From Chloroflexota bacterium (GTDB lineage Bacteria; Chloroflexota; Anaerolineae; UBA1429): a stretch of 64,000 nucleotides of DNA. The notes under the pieces are model-generated. The model did no database searches, was not told the origin of the DNA, and saw only the letters and a list, made by a program, of their open reading frames with translations. Of this stretch, positions 53,910 to 55,224 are shown in pieces. The position numbers were made by a program, and so were the translations under genes. The stretch's first letter is position 1. Each line of letters starts with the position of its first letter. The stretch lies in the NCBI GenBank assembly GCA_019873625.1, contig JAIOAW010000005.1, forward strand, positions 1 through 64,000, written 5' to 3'.

Positions 53910-54417
53910 AAAAACAAAAGCGCCGCGAGGGATTCCTCGCGGCGCGCGAACCCAAAAAAGTGCAGAACCCCAAGTGACCTGAGCCTTCTACCCGCACCTG
54001 ACTCGTTGATAATGGAGTTTCTCCTCCGCGGGCCTTGGGTACGATCCCTCATGCTTTACCACGAGGTTTCGCAAAGGACCTTTGGGCCTGGGCTTGCGCC
54101 CTCACCTTCCGGGTACCTCTCCGCACTCCCAGCATCACCTGGGTTTTGCGAACCCTTGCACCCTTCGTTCAGATGCCCCGGACCGCCCGTCTCGTTGTTA
54201 TGGAGTGTCTCCTCCGGTTTTGATCGGCTTGACTCCCTTTCCCCTGCGGGTTGCCCCACAAGGTAATCAGTTAATGGCTTCCCGATGCGGCTTGCACCGC
54301 ACCTTTAGACCACTTACGGCCCTTCAGGTTGCCCCTCCGGTACCGCTCGCCAGCCAACCAAGTTTTCAACGTGGCGCCCCGTTGAGTAGACCTCATCAAT
54401 CTCTCGGGGCTCTGCAC
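53910..54417 (-). ncRNA. Large stand-alone structured RNA (~508 nt), class unassigned
   Basis: A near-consensus promoter lies immediately upstream and a strong terminator ends it. The first 15 transcribed bases (GTGCAGAGCCCCGAG) pair with the bases just before the terminator (CTTGGGGTTCTGCAC), closing the whole molecule. Inside are many hairpins, including two capped by GCAA (GTGGG/CCCGC and GGGC/GCCC), GGTGCGG/CCGCATC, CCTCGTG/CATGAGG and GGGTT/AACCC. A motif GGAG-GAGAMA-CTCC followed by ATWAYAACGAG occurs twice. It lacks the conserved cores of RNase P and the tRNA-like end of tmRNA, and a domain V of group II introns was not seen. No frame on either strand looks like a gene. Confidence 0.8.
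53920..53945 (-). terminator. Terminator of the large structured RNA
   Basis: GCGCCGCGAGG and CCTCGCGGCGC form a perfect 11-bp stem with a four-base loop; on the minus strand CTTTTGTTTTT follows. Confidence 0.9.
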
Positions 54418-54421
54418 AATC

Positions 54422-54450
54422 ACTATAGCATACTTTCGCCAATTTGTCAA
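54422..54450 (-). promoter_or_regulatory. Promoter of the large structured RNA
   Basis: On the minus strand a perfect TTGACA and TATAGT are 17 bases apart. Transcription should begin at or within a base or two of the closing helix of the RNA. Confidence 0.9.
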
Positions 54451-54522: not shown

Positions 54523-55224
54523 TTAGGGCTTCCAAATCTCCCAGACCCTGCCCACCAACGCCGGGCCGGGTTTGAGGGTCATTTGCCCAGGCTGCCAGCC
54601 CGAAGGCGTGACCTCCCCCGTGGCGCGGACGTGCTGGAAGGCCTTGACCTGGCGAATCAACTCCTCGGGATTGCGGCCCACTTCGGGCGTGAGCACTTCC
54701 ATCGCGCGGATGACGAAATCGGGGTCAATGATAAAGCGCCCACGGATATCCACGCCGGCCGCTTCATCATACACGCCATAGATGGCGCCGATCTTCCCGC
54801 CGGCATCCGAGAGCATCGGGAAGGGCACCCCGCCTTCCACCATCTTGGAGAGTTCGTACTCCTGCCACATCTTGTGTACAAAGCGGCTATCGGTGCTCAT
54901 AGCCAACACTTCTACATCCAGGGCCTTCAGTTCCGGGTAACGGGCGGCGACCGCCGCCAATTCTGTGGGTCAAACGAAGGTGAAATCTCCTGGGTAGAAG
55001 CACAGGACGATCCATTTACCCTTGTAATCCGACAGTTTGACGGTGCGGAACCCCACGCCGTTGATGAAGGCATTCGCCTCGAAATCAATGGCCTCTTGGC
55101 CGACGCGTGCAATCATCCTCTTTTCCTCCATCGCTTCTCGGCCGGCGGCTGCGGCGGCCTGTTGGGGCAAGGGCACGATCGGCCCTTGCGCGGGTTTGAC
55201 ACATCCATCGGTAAGTTCCGGCAT
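54523..55224 (-). CDS. Selenocysteine-containing peroxiredoxin (AhpC/Prx1-Prx6-like), TGA read as Sec
   Basis: The frame gives a 233-residue peroxiredoxin if the TGA at 54972-54970 (codon 85) is read through. Before it is [15 protein letters not shown] and after it [22 protein letters not shown], so TGA sits exactly at the peroxidatic Cys of the FTFVCPTE motif. A GGUC-loop hairpin starts 11 bases later, as in bacterial SECIS elements. The second half ([47 protein letters not shown]) is intact. The C-terminal resolving position reads [10 protein letters not shown] with Thr, suggesting a one-Sec mechanism. AAGGAGG precedes ATG 55224. An inactivated gene is the alternative. Confidence 0.88.
54943..54969 (-). 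promoter_or_regulatory. Candidate bacterial SECIS element
   Basis: Immediately after the in-frame TGA come 11 bases and then GGCGGC-GGTC-GCCGCC, a perfect 6-bp stem with a GGUC loop. The E. coli fdhF SECIS also has an 11-base spacing and a GGUC apical loop for SelB binding. The bulged U of the fdhF stem is not present here. Confidence 0.75.

Follow-up and report, generated by a model that had tools for sequence, protein, structure and literature searches.

A predicted large structured RNA with a constant closing helix and a size-variable interior in one family of Chloroflexota

Introduction

Does the minus strand of positions 53,910-54,450 in the window (the whole stretch of DNA analysed here, 64,000 nt from a Chloroflexota bacterium) carry a gene for a structured RNA, does this RNA belong to a known family, and what could it do in the cell? 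Structured non-coding RNAs of large size are rare, and the majority of those known have proved to be ribozymes, cores of RNPs or RNA assemblies of an unusual kind. A first-pass annotation, made from the letters alone, had proposed an orphan, independently transcribed and highly folded RNA of ~508 nt, outside known families and comparable in size and ornament to OLE, GOLLD or ROOL. Here, we follow up this proposal by comparing the locus with covariance models of known RNAs and with related genomes.

Organization of the locus

The RNA gene is composed of the following elements:

54422-54450 (-): sigma-70-type promoter TTGACA-N17-TATAGT with an extended TGC before the -10, from a sequence scan
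54403-54416 (-): 5' arm of the closing helix P1, TGCAGAGCCCCGAG, from the fold, an inverted-repeat scan and covariation in 28 copies
54398-54402 (-): 5' side of the inner part of P1, the A of an A·A mismatch and GATT (4 bp)
54202-54215 (-): hairpin GGAGGAGACACUCC of interior domain 1, from a pattern scan of 376 genomes
54192-54201 (-): A/C-rich strand AUAACAACGA following hairpin 1, conserved and predicted to be unpaired
54014-54027 (-): hairpin GGAGGAGAAACUCC in interior domain 2, where the GGAG motif occurs a second time
54003-54013 (-): second conserved strand, AUUAUCAACGA
53975-53979 (-): 3' side of the inner part of P1, GGUC and the A of the A·A mismatch
53961-53974 (-): 3' arm of P1, CTTGGGGTTCTGCA, from the fold, the inverted-repeat scan and covariation
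53961-54416 (-): whole structured RNA, P1 to P1, 456 nt, with an interior of two multibranch domains
53954-53959 (-): T6 run directly 3' of P1, a possible built-in terminator
53910-53945 (-): 11-bp intrinsic terminator with a T-rich tail

The consensus minus-strand promoter of the first-pass annotation is indeed present: the -35 box TTGACA (54450-54445) and the -10 box TATAGT (54427-54422) are separated by 17 nt and score 11 of 12 matches, with 0.7 sites this good expected over the 2.5 kb that were scanned, and the 5' arm of P1 begins 5 nt past TATAGT. The same geometry, a TTGACA -35, a 17-nt spacer and a helix starting 5-6 nt past the -10, is found in all 28 analysed copies of the RNA (described below), 26 of which also display TGn before the -10. 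Note that the promoter search pattern demanded TTGAC and a loose TATA-like -10, leaving free the sixth base, the exact spacer and the TG, and that, despite this requirement, several copies were first located without the pattern. Given a near-consensus promoter with an identical geometry in 28/28 copies, high expression is to be expected and the RNA is probably abundant.

The closing helix lies, as had been claimed, beside an 11-bp terminator with a T-run. In the window copy, P1 consists of 14 bp, then the A·A mismatch, then 4 bp, and it appears in the inverted-repeat scan as a pair of 18-nt arms with 83% complementarity. The terminator stem (53945-53920, 11 bp) is followed by TTTTGTTTTT. The RNA measures about 505 nt to this distal terminator, close to the length first proposed; should transcription already stop at the U-run behind P1, it would measure about 460 nt. 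Since a T-run directly follows P1 in most copies and several lack an obvious second hairpin, P1 may itself double as a terminator.

Interior fold and coding potential

The predicted minimum free energy of 53910-54450 is -249 kcal/mol (z = -7.9; 0 of 100 dinucleotide shuffles as low). All 28 copies fold better than their shuffles, with z ranging from -3.8 to -13.1; in the short G009 copy (217 nt), the stability of the interior does not exceed that of shuffles (z -0.8). The multiple internal hairpins with GNRA loops noted at first sight are borne out, since such loops cap 4 of the 8 predicted hairpins of the window copy vs 0.4 in shuffles, and 45 of 162 over the 28 copies vs 7.3 expected, an about six-fold excess.

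Each of the two domains of the 456-nt window copy ends in a GGAG hairpin, with AUAACAACGA or AUUAUCAACGA coming next, and domain 1 resembles, by eye, the interior of one group of relatives (subgroup B, see below). Fourteen of the 15 places matching the GGAG-motif pattern in the 376 genomes scanned fall inside the RNA described here. The motif is missing from several copies (G002, G004, G009 and G012).

No reading frame is common to the 28 copies. A GAGAG..UUGAUGA sequence near the 5' end looks like a ribosome-binding site with a start codon, and could point to a small-protein mRNA that has a structured leader. Against this, the sequence forms a strand in and beside P1, and the frames starting from it span 8-70 codons or are missing, none keeping its length from copy to copy; we consider an mRNA extremely unlikely.

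Covariation of the closing helix and of the interior

An RNA gene is expected to display covarying helices, a check set out by the first-pass annotation, and both P1 and the interior show compensatory changes. Over 28 distinct sequences, 95.4% of the P1 cells are paired, a percentage that is inflated because copies were accepted partly on pairing (P1 arms pairing at least 10/12); the compensatory exchanges, found at P1 columns 2, 5, 6, 7, 8 and 10, are not forced by this selection. The alignment contains 41 double-change cells vs 9.6 in shuffles (0 of 500 as high), and pairing drops to 28-52% when it is slid. The inner core of P1 (GAG, A·A, G-C) hardly varies, and within the near-invariant core CGAGAG/GUCACUUG pairs 13, 14 and 16 are unchanged in 27-28 of the 28 copies, which suggests a recognition site.

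For the interior, we used small alignments (6-7 sequences) from subgroups other than that of the window copy. In subgroup C (seven sequences), 24 of 65 pairs are changed on both sides, above all shuffles, and pairing stands at 91.2%, falling below 50% when the alignment is slid; in subgroup B, 11 of the 59 pairs of the alignment fold carry a compensatory change. With these changes, a promoter and terminator of its own and no conserved ORF, the locus is almost certainly a genuine non-coding RNA gene.

Comparison with known RNA families

We then compared the locus with the 4227 families of Rfam 15 using cmscan, and obtained no convincing match at the gathering score or up to E 10; the five entries reported at the locus up to E 10 each score far below their own gathering score. 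None of 20 homologous loci has a match to the RNA at the gathering score, the single hit nearby being a cobalamin riboswitch downstream of the G011 copy (L004, 2473-2624). A literature search of an open-access library brought up no earlier account of an RNA of this kind from these bacteria. Together with the covarying helices, the conserved promoter and terminator and the lack of a conserved ORF, this Rfam-negative result supports, as judged from sequence comparison, the proposed gene for a highly folded RNA that is transcribed on its own and belongs to no known family.

Could the RNA still be a diverged or replaced version of a known one, such as RNase P, 6S, tmRNA, Y RNA, OLE, ROOL, GOLLD, HEARO or a group I or II intron? 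Its similar size, strong promoter and GNRA loops would fit, and its CGAGAG/CACUUG core faintly recalls the Ro-binding stem of Y RNAs. This reading is very improbable, with nothing relevant from cmscan to E 10 and no neighbour gene common to the copies. RNase P (RF00010), 6S RNA (RF00013) and tmRNA (RF00023, a model that includes the tRNA-like end) are not matched at the locus and are encoded elsewhere in the same genome, at G000:C1:46261-46652 (242 bits), G000:C14:20046 and G000:C2:146043-146435, respectively. A separate 6S gene is found in 14 of 16 genomes; in G002 (C79:173-598), two adjacent 6S matches lie about 90 nt apart. The Y RNA model is likewise unmatched, and the Ro60/TROVE protein was detected in 0 of 80 relatives, with a positive Deinobacterium control. 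OLE, ROOL, GOLLD and HEARO lack a covariance-model match at the locus.

Beyond homology, several of these RNAs offer likenesses of architecture. 6S RNA is also independently transcribed and closed by a long terminal helix, but its interior is one long bubble hairpin whereas the one described here is multibranched. In bacterial Y RNAs, a variable body is held by a terminal stem that is conserved and carries an internal irregularity of specific sequence; the present RNA shares the conserved stem and the variable body, in a family without Ro60/TROVE. OLE, ROOL and GOLLD are, like it, independent large multibranched bacterial RNAs with a conserved structure and an unclear cellular role, so the likeness first noted holds in style (size, GNRA loops, multibranch fold) and not in homology: unlike them, the present RNA comes in lengths that differ four-fold, with closing helix and promoter retained, has no covariance-model match to them, and gives no convincing match in phages, plasmids or viral contigs.

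Distribution of the family

A blastn search of 150 relatives, the check proposed for the locus, returned short collinear matches at the closing helix and at GGAGGAGACACTCC, and reading the matched loci revealed the same arrangement with a different interior. Three patterns, the P1 3' strand, the promoter with the P1 5' strand, and the GGAG motif, were run over 376-396 genomes of the class and reached the same loci. The RNA is present in all 15 sampled genomes of the family of the window and in one genome (G170) of a second family, whose copy may lie on a contaminating contig (the MAG is 82% complete). This amounts to 29 complete copies in 16 genomes, namely the 28 of the analysed set and G005b (at L098), plus two cut by contig ends in G003 and G006, the latter being the only copy of its genome; G389, in which the P1 arms pair poorly, was left out. 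The term 'orphan' therefore does not hold, every sampled relative of the same family having copies, and is better replaced, on these genome sequences, by a multi-copy family restricted, as sampled, to one bacterial family and one outlier.

Each genome has 1-4 copies, and the 28 P1-to-P1 lengths range from 217 to 931 nt. Three subgroups of interior can be told apart, B with 242-263 nt, A with 243-284 nt and C with 304-417 nt, alongside a long type of 782-931 nt found in two genera. Two genomes of a single genus (G003:C136 and G013:C49; L089 and L023) have two copies in tandem, separated by ~0.4 kb.

No convincing member other than that of G170 was found outside the family, either in a 400-genome sample of the phylum or in a scan of 84,980 GTDB species, keeping in mind that more diverged relatives would be missed because the search patterns are strict. 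In the latter scan, the exact P1 3' strand occurs in nine stretches, seven on Chloroflexi/Anaerolineae contigs and two chance-like. Of the matches outside the family, in G618, G556, G660 and G135, those in G618, G556 and G135 were read and do not contain the RNA. The RNA was not found in phage and plasmid collections, the exact P1 3' pattern has zero occurrences in viral contigs, and the short GGAG motif occurs in 25 viral contigs, a number that we estimate to be about chance, all of which lack the P1 signature. These searches argue against a phage origin.

Proposed role

We moderately favour a lineage-specific, trans-acting structural RNA in which the P1 core is a docking site and the interior a scaffold; trans action, docking and scaffolding are all inferred. 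The near-consensus promoter would start the transcript at the 5' arm of P1, the interior would fold into multibranched domains with GNRA-capped stems and one or two modules of a GGAG hairpin followed by AUAACAACGA, and P1 would close the molecule, with the U-run and/or the downstream hairpin ending the transcript. The P1 core (CGAGAG/GUCACUUG with the A·A mismatch) most likely docks one common partner, either a protein or, in a homo-oligomer, the same RNA, and the interior would be a plastic scaffold that expands and contracts four-fold with its helices kept. A plastic scaffold with a docking core in P1 would imply a structural RNA or RNP that works in trans and is not the leader of a neighbouring gene.

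OLE, ROOL and GOLLD form RNA-only homo-oligomers held by A-minor contacts and kissing loops (PMC12286853). As ornate RNAs can thus assemble without protein, an RNA-only particle is, by analogy, a real possibility. A bolder version, in which the RNA is a previously undescribed core bacterial RNA machine, an RNA-only or RNA-protein particle with a constant helical handle and a scaffold varying four-fold in size, is put forward tentatively.

The main rival is a trans-acting regulatory RNA that acts by base pairing or sponging: AUAACAACGA and the opened GGAG hairpin (ACUCC) would be seeds for mRNAs or an RNA-binding protein, and the paralogues would be sibling regulators. The 1-4 diverged paralogues per genome, the strong promoters and terminators and the fast-evolving interiors are typical of sRNA siblings, and the motif shows high conservation with a predicted single-stranded state, but it is lacking from the G002, G004, G009 and G012 copies, and a base-pairing sRNA needs less than an extensive covarying multibranch fold. 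CsrB and RsmZ are multi-copy, fast-evolving RNAs of variable length with a strong promoter and terminator. The present RNA resembles them in all of these respects and differs by its long conserved closing helix; moreover, CsrA was found in only 1 of the 16 genomes and is missing from the other 15, and GGA is not among the 22 3-mers most enriched over dinucleotide shuffles, which argues against a sponge of this type. Overall, we judge a regulatory role to be unlikely.

The RNA has no entry in Rfam 15, and every sampled member of one Chloroflexota family has kept it, with natural size variants of 217-931 nt that have one closing helix in common. Owing to these variants and to the family-wide conservation, the minimal core and its partner are directly testable in vitro, even without a cultured host.

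Genomic neighbourhood of the copies

Conserved inverted ends, a variable interior and several copies per genome are also what a MITE-like mobile repeat would display, its terminal inverted repeats mimicking a closing helix. We give this reading hardly any credence: in every copy the promoter lies outside the inverted repeat and at a fixed distance from it, compensatory changes are seen in the interior, some copies occupy syntenic loci across genera, and tandem copies recur in two genomes of one genus.

Those neighbours that were examined have ordinary metabolic functions and vary from copy to copy, and no neighbour gene is common to all copies, which speaks against a leader acting in cis and against a dedicated partner encoded by an adjacent gene. 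Synteny among relatives is local; in four genera, for example, some short members are located upstream of a gene resembling a phosphoribosyltransferase. Upstream of the RNA in the window, a peroxiredoxin gene (54523-55224, minus strand) displays an in-frame TGA exactly at the position of the peroxidatic cysteine, making it a candidate selenocysteine peroxiredoxin.
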